A stretch of 64,000 nucleotides of DNA from Candidatus Paraluminiphilus aquimaris (GTDB lineage: Bacteria; Pseudomonadota; Gammaproteobacteria; Pseudomonadales; Halieaceae): contig NZ_CP036501.1 in assembly GCF_026230195.1 (NCBI RefSeq), positions 2,480,001-2,544,000 of the forward strand. Reading direction: 5' to 3'. This document shows, piece after piece, positions 25,521 through 33,192 of the stretch. Positions within the stretch are counted from its first letter, which is position 1. Every line of letters begins with the position of its first letter. A program made the position numbers and the translations under genes. A model generated the notes under the pieces. It searched no databases. It was not told where the DNA came from and worked only from the letters and a program-made list of their open reading frames with translations.

Positions 25521-25910
25521 TCAAACAAGATCAAGGGCGTAGGGTTTTAAAACCTCTAATGGGATCGCTCTTAGCGTGACAATGTTGGTTGACCGCAAGA
25601 AGAGTTTTGGCGCCTTACCGGCTAAGTGTGCCTGCTCCCATCTTAAGGCGCACAAACACCACTTGTTTCCCGCAACCAAACCGGGGAATCCAAATTCTGG
25701 ACGAGGGGTACTGAGATCATTACCTGCGGAGGCTGAGAAAGCGAGAAACTCTTGCGTCATTAACGCACAAACTGTGTGCGTCCCCACGTCATTCGGACCC
25801 GTATTGCAGTGCCCATCTCTATAAAAACCCGTGAGCGGGTCCTCGCAGCAAAGTTCTATTGGCTCGCCAAATACATTTTGCTGTGATTTAGGCATACGCT
25901 CAGCTTTCAT
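25521..25910 (-). CDS. DUF2237 family protein
   Basis: 129 aa with the full DUF2237 pattern: NVFGEPIELCCEDPLTGFYR, DGHCNTGPNDVGTHTVCALM, TQEFLAFSASAGNDLSTPRP, EFGFPGLVAGNKWCLCALRW. Five or more conserved cysteines suggest a metal or redox role, but no activity is established. GGAG lies eight bases before the ATG at 25910. Stands alone between the dioxygenase and the TSUP gene. Confidence 0.9.
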   Translation of the reverse strand: MKAERMPKSQQNVFGEPIELCCEDPLTGFYRDGHCNTGPNDVGTHTVCALMTQEFLAFSASAGNDLSTPRPEFGFPGLVAGNKWCLCALRWEQAHLAGKAPKLFLRSTNIVTLRAIPLEVLKPYALDLV

Positions 25911-26322
25911 TGGCTTGTCTCCATAAAGGGAATTAATTCAATTTTCGGAAGTGACTCATCACTCCTTTCTCACTTTAAGTCGCCACGCTTTTACCAAGGC
26001 GCGGGTGGTGACTAACTCATTCATCGAGGTTAGCAGATGATCGTTTCATCAAAGGGGTCGTGGGGATTAGCGATCTCTAAGACTCACATCGACACGCTAA
26101 AATAGTGAATCACAAACAACCATCGAGATCTGCGCCTGGTTTTACCCTCCGCCCTACCACATGACTCCAGACCAACAGCCAGCACTCAAAACCTACAAGC
26201 GCTGCGCATCTCCACCGTGGTAAGTGAGTGAGCATAAAACCAAAGAGAGGCGATTGAAAAGGCATTTGGGGCTCCCCTTAGAAATGGCCGCGGCCCCCCT
26301 CCCCGACCTGCTCGATTACAGG
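25911..26322. other. 412-bp intergenic gap without a convincing gene
   Basis: Lies between the TSUP permease and DUF2237. It contains only very short frames, such as a 20-codon plus-strand frame at 26161 and the N-terminal part of a GTG-initiated frame at 26224 that runs antisense into the permease. No hairpin-plus-T terminator or tRNA-like fold was found by eye. Confidence 0.5.
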
Positions 26323-27075
26323 CTAAATCAACCCGTAGGGAGTCCAAGTCCAGAGGATTCGAAGCCCTACCAAAAGTACCAAAGCGCCTGTGAGTTGGGC
26401 CACACGCTGATGCGCTACACCTTCGATAACGAACCGCCCGCCTATCACACCCCCCAAAAGAACAGCCCCCAGTAACGGTAGTGCAGACATAACCTGAAGA
26501 AATGCTTCATCAGCGCCACTTTTTAGAAGCTGACCGGCGAGTCCACTAAACGAGTTAATGAGAATGAAGAAACTACAAAGGGCAGCGATGGTTTTACTCG
26601 ATGCCCATCTCAGGTAATGCAGGATGGGAGCGAGGAAAATTCCGCCACCAATCCCAACCATTCCAGAGAGCAGCCCAAGGCCCCCTCCAATAATCGCCGC
26701 GAGCCGCCAAGATTTGGCACCGACAATCGATTCATCCGGCGCGCGCCGAATACACAGGCTTACACCTGCGAGGGTGAGGCTCGACCCAAGAACCAAAAAA
26801 TAAAATCGCTCATCGATGGGGATAATTCCGCCCAAAAATGCCATTGGCACCGATGACGCCAAAAACGGAATCGCCATCCGCCAATCAAAGTCTCGCCGGT
26901 TCACTGCGAAATAACTGCCAAGACTCACGACAAGAATATTGCAAGGCAAGGCCACGAGCGGAATCAGCTCCGCCGGTTGCCCGCTTAGGGCGAGCAGAGC
27001 AATGTAAGTGGATCCCCCACCGAAACCAACGGCTGAGTAAATGACGGCGACAAAGAAAAAAGCGACAGGGAGCAT
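26323..27075 (-). CDS. TauE/SafE (TSUP) family permease
   Basis: 250-aa membrane protein with the two-repeat TSUP layout of about eight helices. Repeat 1 begins FFFVAVIYSAVGFGGGSTYI, and repeat 2 has GGGLGLLSGMVGIGGGIFLA then PILHYLRWASSKTIAALCSF. Family members export sulfite or sulfoacetate or take up organic anions. Being near a TauD-like dioxygenase hints at sulfite export after sulfonate cleavage, but the two genes are about 950 bp apart with DUF2237 between them. Confidence 0.88.
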   Translation of the reverse strand: MLPVAFFFVAVIYSAVGFGGGSTYIALLALSGQPAELIPLVALPCNILVVSLGSYFAVNRRDFDWRMAIPFLASSVPMAFLGGIIPIDERFYFLVLGSSLTLAGVSLCIRRAPDESIVGAKSWRLAAIIGGGLGLLSGMVGIGGGIFLAPILHYLRWASSKTIAALCSFFILINSFSGLAGQLLKSGADEAFLQVMSALPLLGAVLLGGVIGGRFVIEGVAHQRVAQLTGALVLLVGLRILWTWTPYGLI

Positions 27076-27298
27076 GGCTAAATCATCACATAAACTCCTC
27101 TCACTGCACCACTACGAGTCACTTAAAGCCTAAAAAGCGCAGTCTCAGTAGACTATTAAGGCAGGAAATCCCAGCGCGATGGCAATAAAAGCCAGCTTTC
27201 ATTTGATGCCCTGTCTGAGGAATTTGCGCGCCGAGACGCGTTTAACTGTAAATGCCCTCTCTCACTCTGACTTTTACTCCACCTCGTTAGGCGCCGCT

Positions 27299-29041
27299 TC
27301 AGGCCTCGCCATCTAAATTACTCAGCCAAATGGCTTGGTAGGGTGCCATGCTCAAATTTTGGGTGTCGGGCAAACAGGCCTCTCCTGTCATAAGGTCTGT
27401 CCAGCTATCGCCGCCTGTCAGGTTCAACGACGCCATCGGCACCGATGCCTCAAGGGCACTTATGTTGTAAAGACAAAAAATGCTCTGGCGCCGATCCTGG
27501 CTTTGTCGCCAAAAGGCAAATATCGCTCGACCGCAATTGAGCGTAAATTGGGTGGCATTCGGATGAAAAGCCGGTTGGCGCCGGCGAATACTTATGAGGA
27601 ACTTAATGCGCTCGAGACATTTTGAATGCTCACTTGCCGGATCGCTCAACTTAGATGAAAGGGCTTTCAGATCCCATTGATGGCGGTTGATTGCTCGGTT
27701 ATGACCGGTATGGAGCACTCGCTGCTCATCGTTCGGTGTGGCCAAAAAACTATGGAGGTAAATGGCAGGTATTCCCTCCAGTCCGAGTAGTATCGCGTGC
27801 GCCAGCACCATTCGATCCAACGTTTCGGTGGGCCCGCCCTCTTGACACCTCAGTGCATCAACCAGGGAGACATTGACCTCGTAGATACTCTTGTCCCCGT
27901 CTGGCAACTCGCGCCATGACAAGAGCGCGCCGTTGGCTTGGAGCTTGTCGCGCATGGATTCAAGCTCGGCTGTGCTCAACAGACCTTCCACCGGCCGAAG
28001 TCCAATCCCATCGTGTGATGCGAGAAAGTTAAAATACGTTGTTCCCAAAACCGCGGGAGGCATGCTCATCAGCCAGCGAGTCATGCGAGATGAATCGCCT
28101 TCGAGCAAGGTGTGAATCAACAGCGGTGGCAGCGCAAAGTTGTAAATACAGTGCGCCTCATCACGCTGACCAAAGTAGGCCAAGTTTTCAATGTTGGGTA
28201 CATTGGTTTCAGTAATAATGATGGCGTCGGGCTGCACCAGTTCAATAAGCGCGCGTAGCAAACGCACCAAGTCATGGGCTTCCGGTAAATTAATGCAGGT
28301 CGTGCCCGACCGTTTCCACGTAAAGGCCACTGCATCTAACCTGAATACCCTCACTCCTTGGTCAAGGTATATCCGAATAATCCGTGTAAATTCGAGTAAT
28401 ACTTCAGGGTTTGAAAAATCAAAGTCAATTTGGTCATGACTAAAGGTGCACCACACTTTTGCAGTACCCGAAGTCGTGTCGACCGCCTGTAGTAAGTCAC
28501 TGGTTCGTGGACGCACAACTTGCGAGACGTCGAAGGCCTCCGTGGCGGTAAAGAAAAATCCAGCTCCGGGTTTGACGTCCTGCTTGAAGTTCTCAAACCA
28601 CACTGACCGGCTCGAGCAATGGTTAAGCACGAGATCGGCCATCAACTTAAAGTCGCTACCAATCGCTCGGATATCATCCCAGTCACCGAGGGCTTGATTA
28701 ACCGTCGAGTAATCTAATACGGAAAAGCCATCATCCGATGTCCAGGGAAAAAACGGCAGTATGTGCACCCAGCTCACACAGTCAGAGAAGTGCGTTAAAC
28801 AAAAACGATGCAGCACACTCAGCGGCTTTTCATCCTCACATAAAATTGAGTCGCCGTAGGTAATCAGCGCAATATCCGACTCACTCCAGAGCCTCGTGTC
28901 CACGACCTCCCGTTCTGAGCCAGCGCCGTCCAGTCCTATCGCATTGAGTAGACTGACGCAGACCTCATCGACGTTGGTCTCTTGACGAGAACCGTATAGC
29001 GTACCGAGTAGGTGCTTTATTTTACTGTGGCTCTTACTCAT
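27299..29041 (-). CDS. GH13_18 glycoside phosphorylase, probable glucosylglycerate phosphorylase
   Basis: 580-aa GH13 enzyme of the sucrose-phosphorylase type. The TIM-barrel motifs are clear: LMADLVLNH (region I), GVRVFRLDAVAF with nucleophile D236, IITETN with acid/base E278, and FLASHDGIGLRP with D344. Subfamily 18 includes sucrose, glucosylglycerol and glucosylglycerate phosphorylases (E. coli YcjM is a glucosylglycerate phosphorylase). It would split the glucoside with phosphate into glucose 1-phosphate and, in this context, D-glycerate. It is the last gene of the operon with a GpgS-like synthase, 21 nt downstream of it. Sequence alone does not prove the acceptor. Confidence 0.82.
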   Translation of the reverse strand: MSKSHSKIKHLLGTLYGSRQETNVDEVCVSLLNAIGLDGAGSEREVVDTRLWSESDIALITYGDSILCEDEKPLSVLHRFCLTHFSDCVSWVHILPFFPWTSDDGFSVLDYSTVNQALGDWDDIRAIGSDFKLMADLVLNHCSSRSVWFENFKQDVKPGAGFFFTATEAFDVSQVVRPRTSDLLQAVDTTSGTAKVWCTFSHDQIDFDFSNPEVLLEFTRIIRIYLDQGVRVFRLDAVAFTWKRSGTTCINLPEAHDLVRLLRALIELVQPDAIIITETNVPNIENLAYFGQRDEAHCIYNFALPPLLIHTLLEGDSSRMTRWLMSMPPAVLGTTYFNFLASHDGIGLRPVEGLLSTAELESMRDKLQANGALLSWRELPDGDKSIYEVNVSLVDALRCQEGGPTETLDRMVLAHAILLGLEGIPAIYLHSFLATPNDEQRVLHTGHNRAINRHQWDLKALSSKLSDPASEHSKCLERIKFLISIRRRQPAFHPNATQFTLNCGRAIFAFWRQSQDRRQSIFCLYNISALEASVPMASLNLTGGDSWTDLMTGEACLPDTQNLSMAPYQAIWLSNLDGEA

Positions 29042-29062
29042 GGCGCTTACCTCTACCTTGCA

Positions 29063-30295
29063 TTACAGCCCTCGCGATGAAAATTCCCGGTGATCCTCCT
29101 CAACAGCATCGATGAGTTGCTCAAAAATGTCGGGGACTGCACTCACCACACGCGACCATGTGGGCATGAAAGGTGCGTCCAGTGGACGCTCAAGAAATTG
29201 CTTACCCGCCTCTAAAATATTGGTAGCAAATAACTCCACCGCTTGCTCTTCAGCATGGGTGTCAAAATCCAGGCCGTTCATGATCGCGTCGCGGCGAAAA
29301 CTCTCAACGTAATCGAGCGCAACACGGTAGTACGTTGCCTTGAGTGTTCTGAACGTCTCTTGATTAAAAACCGTCCCTTGAATAGCCAGCTTCCGAATCA
29401 AAGATTTCGTGATATCCAGCGACATTCGTGACAGCCCGTGACCCGCGTCATTAGCGGATAACTCCTGATGCTTGTGATCATAATTGTCGGTGAGCTCGAC
29501 CTGACATATGCGATTAGTGCTGTTGTTTCGGTACATCTCCGACGCGACACCCATTTCTAATCCCCAGTCACTGGGCACCCGCATGTCGTTCAATAGGTCT
29601 TTACGAAACGCAAATTCTCCGGCCAATAAGTAGCGAAAGCTGTCGAGGTAATTCAGGAAATCGTTCTCGCCCAAGACGCGTTTTGTGGCGTGAATTAAAG
29701 GCCCAACTAAAAGTCGGCAAGCGCGTCCATTGAGCTTCTCATTTGCCACACGGGCGTAATATCCCTTGCAGAAATCAAAACTGAATTGTGGATGCGCAAC
29801 CGGGTAAATCAATCTTGCAAGTAGGCTTCGGTCGTAGGTCAGAATGTCGCAATCGTGAAGGGCAACCGCATCCACCTTGGACGTCGCTAAGGCATAACCC
29901 ATGCAGTACCAAACATTCCGCCCTTTACCGGGTTCATGGGGAGCAAGCCCTCTGATCGCGAGTTCGGAGTGAATGGCGCGCAGGCGTGGGCCGTCGTGCC
30001 ACATCACTCGATGCTGCTGCGGTAAGCCTTTAAAAAAAGAGAGAGCCGACTCGTACTGGCTCTGATCAGCTCTGTCGAGTCCAATAACAATTTGGGATAG
30101 ATAAGGGACTTTTTGGAGCTCTGAGCGAATGAGGGGCATCGCGTCAGTTTCGAGCTCTGAGTAGAGCGAGGGAAGAATCAGCCCCAAAGGTCGCGACGCC
30201 GAAAAATTAACGAGCTGGGCCTCAAGCTCCTCAACGGAGCGGTTTCGTAGGTTATGCAAAGTGGCAATGTGCGGGCTTTGATAAAAATCAGCCAT
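29063..30295 (-). CDS. Glucosyl-3-phosphoglycerate synthase-like glycosyltransferase
   Basis: 410-aa GT-A fold, inverting/retaining class resembling GT81-type GpgS. N-terminal nucleotide-sugar binding LGLILPSLYSELE, IVIGLDRAD, the GKGRNVW segment (123-129), then the metal-binding DCD (148-150) in VALHDCDILTYDRSLLARL and KGYYARVANEKLNGRACRLL. Expected reaction: NDP-glucose plus 3-phosphoglycerate to glucosyl-3-phosphoglycerate. The ATG at 30295 forms TAATG with the preceding phosphatase stop, so I prefer it to the ATG at 30307. A mannosyl-3-phosphoglycerate synthase activity is the main alternative. Confidence 0.8.
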   Translation of the reverse strand: MADFYQSPHIATLHNLRNRSVEELEAQLVNFSASRPLGLILPSLYSELETDAMPLIRSELQKVPYLSQIVIGLDRADQSQYESALSFFKGLPQQHRVMWHDGPRLRAIHSELAIRGLAPHEPGKGRNVWYCMGYALATSKVDAVALHDCDILTYDRSLLARLIYPVAHPQFSFDFCKGYYARVANEKLNGRACRLLVGPLIHATKRVLGENDFLNYLDSFRYLLAGEFAFRKDLLNDMRVPSDWGLEMGVASEMYRNNSTNRICQVELTDNYDHKHQELSANDAGHGLSRMSLDITKSLIRKLAIQGTVFNQETFRTLKATYYRVALDYVESFRRDAIMNGLDFDTHAEEQAVELFATNILEAGKQFLERPLDAPFMPTWSRVVSAVPDIFEQLIDAVEEDHREFSSRGL

Positions 30296-31125
30296 TAAAT
30301 TCTCCAACCGTTCGATTTAAAGATTTCGCGTATGCCGGCAGCCCATGCATTGGGCCCGGAGCCGTCTGAGACATAAGTTGAACCTGAGCGCTCGAGCACA
30401 AGTGGTGTGCCACGGTCATTTCGCATAACGAGTGCAAAATCAGCGCCCTCCAACATCTCTCGATCATTGGGTGCATCGCCAGCGGCGATGGAAATGAGGT
30501 CAGGTGTCCACTCACGTTTCAATAAATTTTGAAACCAACGAGCAGCAATGCCTTTGTTGTTTGGTCCCATTAAGTGAACAAAACGACCCCCGTGCGACAC
30601 CGCAAACCCTATATCGGTCAGCACCGTTTTGAATTTCTGAAGCGCGTCGCTCGAATCTCGCCAGTCTATTGTTTCCGAATACAAACGCATCTGAGCACGC
30701 TTCGCAGATTCAAGATCGAGTCCTGTAATGTCCGCCACCTCGGCCGCGCGCATCTCGTTAAGAGACTTAAACGCGAATTGGCTGGACATATCGAGCGCTT
30801 CAATCACGTCGCAAAGAGCCTGGCGTCTCACTCCGAACTCTCGAACCCAGTAGTCCTCAAAGATCTTGCTTCCCATTGGACAGCGGATATTCAGACTCAT
30901 TGGTACGTAGACGGCCGCGCCATTCTCCACAATGAAGGCATGGTCTAAGGACATCTGCTCCCTGAAATCAGCGACCTCCGCATACGTTTTACTCGTAGCT
31001 GGAATGACCGGGACATGACTCGCCGATAACTGCCCCAATATCTCCTTGGCCTCGTGAGCCGAGTACGTGTCGTGATCAAGGAGTGTCCCGTCTAAATCCG
31101 TATAAATGACCGGCGAGCTGCTCAT
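30295..31125 (-). CDS. HAD phosphatase, glucosyl/mannosyl-3-phosphoglycerate phosphatase family
   Basis: 276-aa HAD-superfamily IIB phosphatase. Motif I is IYTDLDGTLLDHDTYS (nucleophile D9, general acid D11 by my count), motif II PATSKTYAEVADF, and motif IV AAGDAPNDREMLEGADFALV. The family (MPGP, TIGR-type mannosyl-3-phosphoglycerate phosphatase-related) removes the phosphate from glycosyl-3-phosphoglycerate. Its start overlaps the kinase stop by ATGA and its stop overlaps the synthase start, so the three proteins are likely made in fixed proportion. Confidence 0.85.
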   Translation of the reverse strand: MSSSPVIYTDLDGTLLDHDTYSAHEAKEILGQLSASHVPVIPATSKTYAEVADFREQMSLDHAFIVENGAAVYVPMSLNIRCPMGSKIFEDYWVREFGVRRQALCDVIEALDMSSQFAFKSLNEMRAAEVADITGLDLESAKRAQMRLYSETIDWRDSSDALQKFKTVLTDIGFAVSHGGRFVHLMGPNNKGIAARWFQNLLKREWTPDLISIAAGDAPNDREMLEGADFALVMRNDRGTPLVLERSGSTYVSDGSGPNAWAAGIREIFKSNGWRI

Positions 31126-32042
31126 TTAGACGTCACCTCCGAAAGGATCAATCTATCGGCTTGCAACTCCCAAGTTTCATTGGCCAAATCGGGGAGAACC
31201 GTCATAGCGTGACAAGTGAGCCTACGAAAGTTCTCTACAAACTCCGCAACCTGTTTAACATTCATTCCCTTAATCGCGTTGTCATTCGCCACTTCACGCC
31301 GTTTCGCGATTAAGCGCACCTCCTGCTCCACACGCCAGTCTAATACCGCCTCAAAACAGGGCGGTTTCAACATACTGAGATAGTCGAGCTTCTTAAAAAT
31401 ATCCACGTAAACGGTCGCAAGCTGATCGTTCACGTACCCTCGCCACGTCCCTAAATTATCGTTTGAGAACTCGAAGCTGCTTGCCGGGACGGCCAGATCT
31501 AGGGGTGCTTGGGCGGGAATTCCAACGCACCACCCCTCGAGCAAAACAATTGTGGGCTTTGCACCAACTCTGATCTTTCGCACCTTTCTGGTGCGATCGT
31601 CTTTGAGCTTGTCAAAAATAGGCAGTGCGATGTCGCCAGATGAATATTCAGAACAGGCGGCGAGGGCATCGTTCAACCGAGGACAATCATGCGTTCCCGG
31701 GACACCCCGCGTTGCTAAAAGAGGATGCACGGCCGCACCTAATTTTCGACGTTGCGCCTTAGACAAATAAAAATCGTCAATGGACAACACGTGACAGTCT
31801 ACTTCGAAGAATCTGGGTAACAGTTCGGCCAGCAACTCACTCAGCGTTGACTTTCCAGACCCCTGTGCACCGTTTAAACCAACAACAACCGGTCTATTTG
31901 AAGCGTGTGCACGCTGGCTGAGCCGCGCCGCATAGTCGAGAAAATACGACTCGGCATTGCGCATAAATATGCTGTTCAAATCTCGTGCCGCGCAAAATTC
32001 GTCCATGAACTGACGAGTAGATCGTTTAAATGTCGACACCAT
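31122..32042 (-). CDS. P-loop D-glycerate 3-kinase (GLYK-like)
   Basis: 306-aa P-loop kinase related to plant-type D-glycerate 3-kinase rather than to GarK/GlxK. Walker A is GLNGAQGSGKSTLSELLAEL (G58-S65 core), followed by the DDFY segment (VLSIDDFYLSKAQRRKLGA) and the GTHD / FDKLKDDR / LLEGWCVG motifs seen in that family. It would phosphorylate D-glycerate with ATP to 3-phosphoglycerate, the substrate of the synthase in this operon and of lower glycolysis. First gene of the operon. Panthothenate-kinase- or uridine-kinase-like P-loop families are less likely alternatives. Confidence 0.8.
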   Translation of the reverse strand: MVSTFKRSTRQFMDEFCAARDLNSIFMRNAESYFLDYAARLSQRAHASNRPVVVGLNGAQGSGKSTLSELLAELLPRFFEVDCHVLSIDDFYLSKAQRRKLGAAVHPLLATRGVPGTHDCPRLNDALAACSEYSSGDIALPIFDKLKDDRTRKVRKIRVGAKPTIVLLEGWCVGIPAQAPLDLAVPASSFEFSNDNLGTWRGYVNDQLATVYVDIFKKLDYLSMLKPPCFEAVLDWRVEQEVRLIAKRREVANDNAIKGMNVKQVAEFVENFRRLTCHAMTVLPDLANETWELQADRLILSEVTSK

Positions 32043-32190
32043 TTACTTTCGGAAACCTTTCAAAGCCTGTCTATCCCTTCTGTGCCTGCAAACACCGTGC
32101 CGATTTGCTAATTCTGCTCGTTTATTTCCACCGGCCAGCGAATGTGATATCCACTTATCTGGCCATAGGGCAAGGTGAGGAGCTAACACA

Positions 32191-33192
32191 ATGTTTAACA
32201 ATACAGCATGGCTTGCGCAGGTCATTGAGGAGATTGTCGATCCGGACCGCGATATTGTTGATCCTCATCATCATCTCTGGCCAGAGCCGAGTATGGCCTA
32301 CAACCTCACAGAACTACTTGGTGACACAACCGATGGTCACAAGGTGTCGCAAACGGTCTATATGGAATGTGGTGCAGCCTACTATAAAGAGGGTCCAGAG
32401 CACCTCAGAAGCGTTGGCGAAACTGAATTCATTGCTCAGGCAGCCACCAGGGCTAAAGAGCAAGGTAGCCGCACACAAATAGCTGGAATCGTCGCGCGCG
32501 CTGACCTACGCGATACGCAACTTGAGGGTGTCCTAGACGCGCATGACGAAACCGCCAATGGCTTGTTTAAGGGTATTCGTCAGGCGGGCGCTTGCTCGGA
32601 GGGTATCGAAGGACTCCTTATTCCCGGTGGTGCTGAGGCGAAGCTGTTTGAGCAAGACCTATTTCGACAGGGGGTCGAACAGCTGGGAAATCGAGGACTT
32701 ACCTTTGACACATGGCTCTACCACTTTCAACTACCCGAATTTATAGCCCTTGCACGCGCAGTGCCAAGCACCACCATGATTCTCGATCATTTTGGAACGC
32801 CACTCGGTGTTGGGCCTTTTGCCGATCATCGAGAAGCCATTTTCGAGACCTGGAAAGTCCACATTGCCGAGCTGGCTGAATGCCCAAACGTTTATATGAA
32901 ACTCGGTGGTCTCGCCATGCCCGACAACGGCTTTGGTTGGGATGGACGAGAACGACCTCCAACTTCTGACGAATTTGTCCAGGCGCAGGCCCGATACTAC
33001 CGCCATACAATTGACTGCTTTGGCCCCGAGCGATGCATGTTTGAAAGTAACTTCCCCGTTGACCGTCTGTCCTTGGGGTACCACGTACTCTACAACGGCT
33101 TCAAAAAGATGACGTCGCACTATGCAGAGGAAGACAAAAATCTTTTATTTTCAGGGGTCGCCAGACACGTCTATCGTTTGGAAGCACCCTAA
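32191..33192 (+). CDS. Amidohydrolase-family (PF04909-type) TIM-barrel hydrolase
   Basis: 333-aa cytoplasmic metal-dependent hydrolase. IVDPHHHLWPEP gives the first HxH metal ligands, TTMILDHFGTPLG carries a later histidine, and CMFESNFPVDRLS the last-strand aspartate. Members include 2-pyrone-4,6-dicarboxylate hydrolases, lactonases and decarboxylases of catabolic routes. GAGGAG lies eight bases before the ATG. It is divergent from the glucosylglycerate operon across a 148-bp gap and two bases ahead of an exported protein of unknown function. Substrate unknown. Confidence 0.85.
   Translation: MFNNTAWLAQVIEEIVDPDRDIVDPHHHLWPEPSMAYNLTELLGDTTDGHKVSQTVYMECGAAYYKEGPEHLRSVGETEFIAQAATRAKEQGSRTQIAGIVARADLRDTQLEGVLDAHDETANGLFKGIRQAGACSEGIEGLLIPGGAEAKLFEQDLFRQGVEQLGNRGLTFDTWLYHFQLPEFIALARAVPSTTMILDHFGTPLGVGPFADHREAIFETWKVHIAELAECPNVYMKLGGLAMPDNGFGWDGRERPPTSDEFVQAQARYYRHTIDCFGPERCMFESNFPVDRLSLGYHVLYNGFKKMTSHYAEEDKNLLFSGVARHVYRLEAP

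Follow-up and report, generated by a model that had tools for sequence, protein, structure and literature searches.

Predicted synthesis, phosphorolysis and recycling of glucosylglycerate by a compact four-gene unit of Candidatus Paraluminiphilus aquimaris

The stretch of DNA analysed here (the window, 64,000 nucleotides of the Candidatus Paraluminiphilus aquimaris genome) carries four consecutive genes on the minus strand, read from position 32042 to position 27299. They very probably serve as one co-directional unit for the turnover of 2-O-alpha-glucosyl-D-glycerate, an osmolyte that contains no nitrogen. The first gene encodes a predicted D-glycerate 3-kinase (GLYK-like; 31122-32042, 306 aa) and is followed by those for a HAD-IIB phosphatase of the MPGP family, the probable GpgP (30295-31125, 276 aa), a predicted GT81-type synthase, GpgS (29063-30295, 410 aa), and, as the last gene, a GH13_18 phosphorylase assigned as a predicted glucosylglycerate phosphorylase (GGaP; 27299-29041, 580 aa). 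GLYK and the phosphatase overlap by 4 bases (ATGA), the phosphatase and GpgS by 1 base (TAATG, with GGAG upstream), and GpgS and GGaP are separated by a gap of 21 bases; the coordinates and junctions thus bear out the initial annotation, which had described four co-oriented genes with overlaps or short gaps. On the strength of these overlaps and gaps, the four genes are predicted to form an operon read as a single transcript. The start of GpgS is likelier the ATG at 30295 than the alternative TTG at 30307 given in the program's list of open reading frames, because the ATG is coupled to the phosphatase stop and because alignments with homologues begin at residue 1 of the protein when the ATG is used. 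At third codon positions the four genes have a G+C of 0.54-0.57, similar to the 0.51-0.59 of seven measured neighbours, and the host genome is a single contig of 2.72 Mb with a completeness of 98.7%.

In the proposed cycle, GpgS would transfer glucose to 3-phosphoglycerate from a nucleotide sugar that is probably UDP-glucose, and the phosphatase would release glucosylglycerate and inorganic phosphate (Pi). GGaP would convert glucosylglycerate and Pi to alpha-glucose 1-phosphate and D-glycerate, and GLYK would return the D-glycerate to 3-phosphoglycerate with ATP. GalU, encoded elsewhere in the genome, could turn glucose 1-phosphate back to UDP-glucose. From textbook reactions, one full turn would cost one ATP and the conversion of one UTP to UDP and pyrophosphate, and would be neutral in Pi. 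This direction of flux, and a use of the product as an osmolyte, are presumed from the gene content. The loop had been put forward in the initial annotation and is most likely the best explanation of the gene set; its enzyme assignments are supported by the motifs and tree of GGaP, the profile match (below cut-off) and fold of GpgS, the sequence and fold of GLYK, and the family and motifs of the phosphatase.

The GH13_18 protein was assigned from two sequence marks of GGaPs, the motif (T/S)ETN and a glutamate in loop A (PMC7178133), by which a protein of a marine alphaproteobacterium has also been identified as a GGaP (PMC10608839). Characterised GGaPs are those of Meiothermus silvanus and Spirochaeta thermophila and Escherichia coli YcjM (PMC7178133, PMC8950772); they share with the window protein the GH13_18 subfamily, TETN and the loop-A glutamate, YcjM being the one compared directly (39.8% identity over 52-574). 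By alignment, TETN was located at residues 277-280 of the window protein and the glutamate at position 388 (YEVN), where four gtfA (sucrose phosphorylase) references, from Agrobacterium, Rhizobium, Saccharobesus and Enterococcus, have glutamine. Both marks were invariant over all 18 rows of a first alignment that included YcjM; in a second alignment, the only rows that did not carry both were two amylosucrase-like ones, an Enterococcus amylase gene and the gtfA references. In a 35-row tree from which glucosylglycerol and sucrose-6-phosphate phosphorylases were absent, the gtfA references, one of which, from Saccharobesus, closely resembles solved sucrose phosphorylases, formed one clade with full support (100), apart from the window protein, YcjM and the other TETN proteins; the root and the joining point of YcjM were not fixed in this tree, and its long gtfA branch was flagged by the tool. 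The phosphorylase therefore does not cluster with the four sucrose phosphorylases, and its acceptor, taken in the initial annotation from context, now has the support of diagnostic residues. A sucrose or glucosylglycerol phosphorylase present here by chance would fit the best NCBIfam model (sucrose_gtfA, 187 bits) and the match of the window protein to solved GH13_18 phosphorylases, glucosylglycerol phosphorylases among them. However, 187 bits is below the cut-off of 334, and the characterised GGaP YcjM likewise scores below it (221 bits); the window protein has TETN and YE rather than the VEIH (three) or PEIH (one) and YQ of the gtfA references; and the position of GGaP after GpgS is conserved across loci. 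This identity was rejected on the motifs and, for sucrose, also on the tree, and is considered extremely improbable. The diagnostic residues and the tree support the prediction of a glucosylglycerate phosphorylase (EC 2.4.1.352).

The two-step MpgS/MpgP and GpgS/GpgP pathways share the same synthase and phosphatase chemistry; the window differs from both in adding a phosphorylase and a kinase, and some of its relatives differ in fusing the phosphatase to the kinase. The synthase matched the GpgS model NF040724 with 353 bits against a cut-off of 700 (E 1.8e-105; residues 7-409 of the TTG form, profile positions 2-402 of 402), and the only family models that matched it at E 0.001 were two GpgS models. 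When its predicted structure (pLDDT 86.2) was used in a fold search, ranks 1-22 were all mycobacterial, 19 titled GpgS and 3 titled only as a mycobacterial protein, with TM scores of about 0.5 on the query and 0.63-0.73 on the target. Structures of Rubrobacter MpgS followed closely at ranks 23, 36 and 39-41. Together with a phosphatase family named after mannosyl-3-phosphoglycerate, these could be taken to mean that the synthase uses GDP-mannose or both donors and that the solute is mannosylglycerate or a mixture. Such a reading was judged improbable in view of the 22 leading fold matches, the family models and the partner phosphorylase with its GGaP motifs, and also because galU is annotated beside gpgP-gpgS in a relative, Qingshengfaniella (L063:6233-7123), where it would complete the sugar side of the loop. 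The donor, which the initial annotation had flagged for checking, is thus probably an NDP-glucose: the nearest solved folds are GpgS, but the GDP-mannose enzyme of Rubrobacter stands close enough behind that this falls short of proof. The host genome has one galU over the cut-off, located outside the operon. By eye, galU also adjoins glucosylglycerate genes at L055:8765-9595 and L056:7475-8314.

The phosphatase scored 205.3 bits with TIGR01486 (HAD-IIB MPGP subfamily), above the cut-off of 164.75, and keeps the HAD motifs DLDGTLL, TSKT and GDAPND. It is probably GpgP, and context would favour glucosyl- over mannosyl-3-phosphoglycerate as its substrate. For the kinase, family-model matches were weak and Pfam gave no match at E 0.001; the best solved match by phmmer was the D-glycerate 3-kinase 6ckg (E 4.5e-16). 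The top fold matches of its AlphaFold2 model (pLDDT 93.7) were 1odf, 6ckg and 7xpc, with pantothenate kinases next; ranks 1-4 are all D-glycerate 3-kinases if 1odf is counted in, which is filed as YGR205w and which we take to be the yeast glycerate kinase. A Walker A motif, GAQGSGKS, is present. Sequence and fold together support the prediction of a class III D-glycerate 3-kinase, which was the only glycerate kinase found in the host genome among the three families searched (GLYK, PF02595 and PF05161).

Conservation of the unit was assessed in two samples. A scan of named genomes with the GpgS profile gave at least 593 stretches, 564 of them encoding relatives, and the best 80 were kept; these are the loci closest to the window by GpgS, so that the counts describe them and not a frequency over all bacteria. 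They take in Alteromonas, Glaciecola, Vibrio, Shewanella, Hahella, Marinobacter, Methylophaga, Pseudoalteromonas and metagenome-assembled genomes (MAGs) labelled Verrucomicrobiota, the nearest by GpgS being Halieaceae bacterium AG-901-J11 (89%) and a Luminiphilus sp. MAG (88%). The order GLYK-GpgP-GpgS-GGaP of the window was found in 38 of these 80 loci and, with GLYK and GpgP joined in a single frame, in 9 others; 32 have GpgP-GpgS-GGaP without the kinase, one of which (L149) ends too near GpgP to judge. The order GpgP-GpgS-GGaP is therefore present in 79 of the 80, and the 80th ends at a contig end. Flanking genes varied by taxon in the 27 loci without GLYK that were compared, and the retention of the three-gene order while the flanks differ indicates an arrangement beyond chance. 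Among 299 Pseudomonadota genomes drawn evenly, 29 were found to have GpgS (E 1e-30). In all 28 that remain when the window's own is set aside, GpgP lies directly before GpgS, with gaps between matched domains of up to 313 bases; GGaP was found somewhere in the genome in 25 (E 1e-80), and GLYK lies inside the cluster in 14, one of them fused. As the order was conserved in both samples, the possibility of chance neighbours was rejected. A first set of 58 genomes (the window's and 57 relatives) had given a GGaP match at E < 1e-80 in 38 and weak matches only in 4 more. The unit is frequent among the sampled marine Gammaproteobacteria.

Several observations weigh against a complete loop encoded in one transcript. 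The match of the synthase to NF040724 lies well below its cut-off, the phosphatase scores below the MPGP equivalog cut-offs, and no sigma-70-type site was found in the divergent gap upstream of GLYK (32043-32190, 148 bases), where a promoter is expected from position alone. Among the 28 even-draw genomes, 3 have no GGaP at E 1e-80 and 14 have no GLYK in the cluster; since this is half of them, the kinase is regarded as an optional part of the unit. In the 30 GpgS genomes searched for glycerate kinases (28 of the even draw, the window's own and one congener), at least one was present in every case: GLYK in 18, a kinase of the GarK type (PF02595) in 11 and one of the MOFRL type (PF05161) in 4, three genomes having two. 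A glycerate kinase of some family was, however, also present in 17 of the 20 GpgS-negative genomes listed out of 270, which were not a random draw. Its presence therefore proves little, and the 30 of 30 was dropped as proof of the loop. Among 11 further relatives, picked because GLYK was unseen beside gpgP (10) or the cluster itself was unseen (G047) and searched for GLYK and GarK, 7 have GLYK at another place in the genome or shortly beyond the stretch that was read, and 2 others have GarK. In G047, GLYK lies in an open frame of 635 residues and may be another fusion. The MOFRL-type kinase gene about 2 kb before gpgS in G247, a genome without GGaP, lies by eye between argH-like and lysA-like genes and was taken as coincidental.

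The role of the kinase is the part of the scheme for which the strongest alternative exists. With the same enzymes, GLYK could act mainly as a general glycerate kinase or as a supplier of 3-phosphoglycerate for synthesis rather than closing the loop, and this is a real though minority possibility. It is consistent with the operon GLYK being alone in the host genome, with the presence of GLYK in 46 of 270 genomes without GpgS, and with its fusion, in relatives, to the biosynthetic phosphatase and not to GGaP. Against it, among the 28 even-draw genomes GLYK was found in the cluster only alongside GGaP (14 of 25 genomes with GGaP, 0 of 3 without), three genomes being too few to decide. GLYK is enriched in genomes with GpgS (17 of 29; Fisher p 3e-6 against the 46 of 270, kinship ignored). 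The direction of the phosphorylase may also be questioned, as GH13_18 reactions are effectively reversible (PMC6720575, PMC11009771), and GGaP might serve mainly as a second route of synthesis from glucose 1-phosphate and glycerate. This was considered unlikely, the operon already holding two genes dedicated to synthesis. Cellular Pi normally favours phosphorolysis, which also counts against a synthetic GGaP. A more ambitious form of the proposed loop, judged rather improbable, is that the four enzymes act as a unit in which glucosylglycerate, far from being a static osmolyte in these marine bacteria, would be a constantly turned-over nitrogen-free buffer storing glucose 1-phosphate and 3-phosphoglycerate together, and that selection for this coupling has repeatedly fused GLYK to GpgP as a bifunctional protein.

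Fusions of this kind were examined in 79 distinct loci with GLYK and GpgP side by side with GpgS (83 loci, 4 identical ones dropped). In 14 of them, GLYK and GpgP form one open frame: L054 (4165-6138, minus strand), L061 (5266-7005, plus strand), L064 (5263-7005, plus strand), L116, L119, L121, L136, L137, L138, L143, L146, L150, L045 and L162. They belong to three Pseudoalteromonas, five Methylophaga, Glaciecola sp. HTCC2999, an Alteromonadaceae MAG, an Oleiphilaceae MAG and three further genomes. By domain boundaries the linkers are 12-20 residues long, and none of the 79 loci, fused or not, has lost the kinase P-loop or any of the three HAD motifs. In a combined tree of GLYK, GpgP and GpgS made by a quick method, the distribution of the fusion takes 6 changes to explain, and well-supported branches force no fewer than 5 of these, gains and splits being indistinguishable on the tree. 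Two fusions on Pseudoalteromonas plasmids are annotated as a single coding sequence, 'HAD-IIB family hydrolase'; with the fusion recognised, marine proteins of about 580 residues now listed as 'HAD-IIB hydrolases' would be annotated correctly. A search of the literature by title and abstract, with subscription papers mostly outside its coverage, gave no account of a GLYK-GpgP fusion, which is the least described part of the gene set. Its recurrence is further evidence that the kinase and the pathway belong together.

As a whole the gene set, though real, is widespread and for the most part known from earlier descriptions, so that the view of the initial annotation that the arrangement is not commonly described did not hold: it is in print at least in outline (PMC7178133, PMC11631117). 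GGaP genes are reported to be often accompanied by genes for glycerate kinase, GpgS or GpgP, the specificity of GGaP having been derived from these neighbours, and experimental confirmation of its exact metabolic function was described as still awaited (PMC7178133). An operon of Prochlorococcus NATL2A for glucosylglycerate metabolism is described as combining de novo synthesis with recycling to glucose 1-phosphate and 3-phosphoglycerate (PMC11631117). It resembles the window in holding both functions in one operon; as far as the description allows comparison, it differs in being cyanobacterial and in having a transporter gene in or next to the operon, which the window unit lacks. In Synechococcus sp. 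PCC 7002, the consecutive tags A2021-A2023 are GPGS, GGAP and GPGP, so that synthase, phosphorylase and phosphatase are again adjacent by locus tag, but the order differs by the tags and the description names no kinase; the same three enzymes were reported together in 198 of 250 Marinobacter isolates (PMC10873239). E. coli ycjM differs in its surroundings, which are ABC transporter and sugar genes; neither gpgS nor gpgP is annotated within the 16 kb shown. The three GpgS genomes without GGaP may have another sink for glucosylglycerate; a glucosidase gene, gmgG, has been named in picocyanobacteria (PMC9361551). What the present analysis adds is the operon GLYK as the sole glycerate kinase found among three families and the recurrent GLYK-GpgP fusion. 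With four genes in a compact unit, and only one glycerate kinase found in a marine genome of 2.7 Mb, the organism would be a clean system for testing glucosylglycerate turnover.

Variants of the locus were also noted. In four congeners (L029, L030, L034 and L036), the GLYK upstream of gpgP is replaced by a different block shared among them, by eye a Gfo/Idh-like oxidoreductase, an aldo/keto reductase and a TauD-like oxygenase, with a symporter ahead in L029; GLYK is present elsewhere in the genome in three of the four. Two Rhodobacterales plasmids, of Leisingera (L062) and Qingshengfaniella (L063), carry gpgP-gpgS together with a convergent ggaP, and no GLYK was found in their vicinity; the Leisingera set is flanked by urease genes and conjugation genes. 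In the draft genomes L049, L050 and L180, ggaP is split over frames or stops, as are other cluster genes in L049 and L050, from either assembly errors or decay.

Promoter and terminator scans of the region returned nothing usable: the sigma-70 scan of 26200-32400 gave a single site, where shuffled sequence gave 5.0 on average, and Rfam at gathering score gave no match in 25900-32400. An amidohydrolase gene is divergent from GLYK, 148 bases upstream. Downstream, a gene for a TauE/SafE-like membrane protein (26323-27075, minus strand) lies on the same strand as GGaP and starts 223 bases beyond it. This gene holds the same place in nine congener genomes (L006, L022-L027, L053 and L060), two of which reach a contig end.

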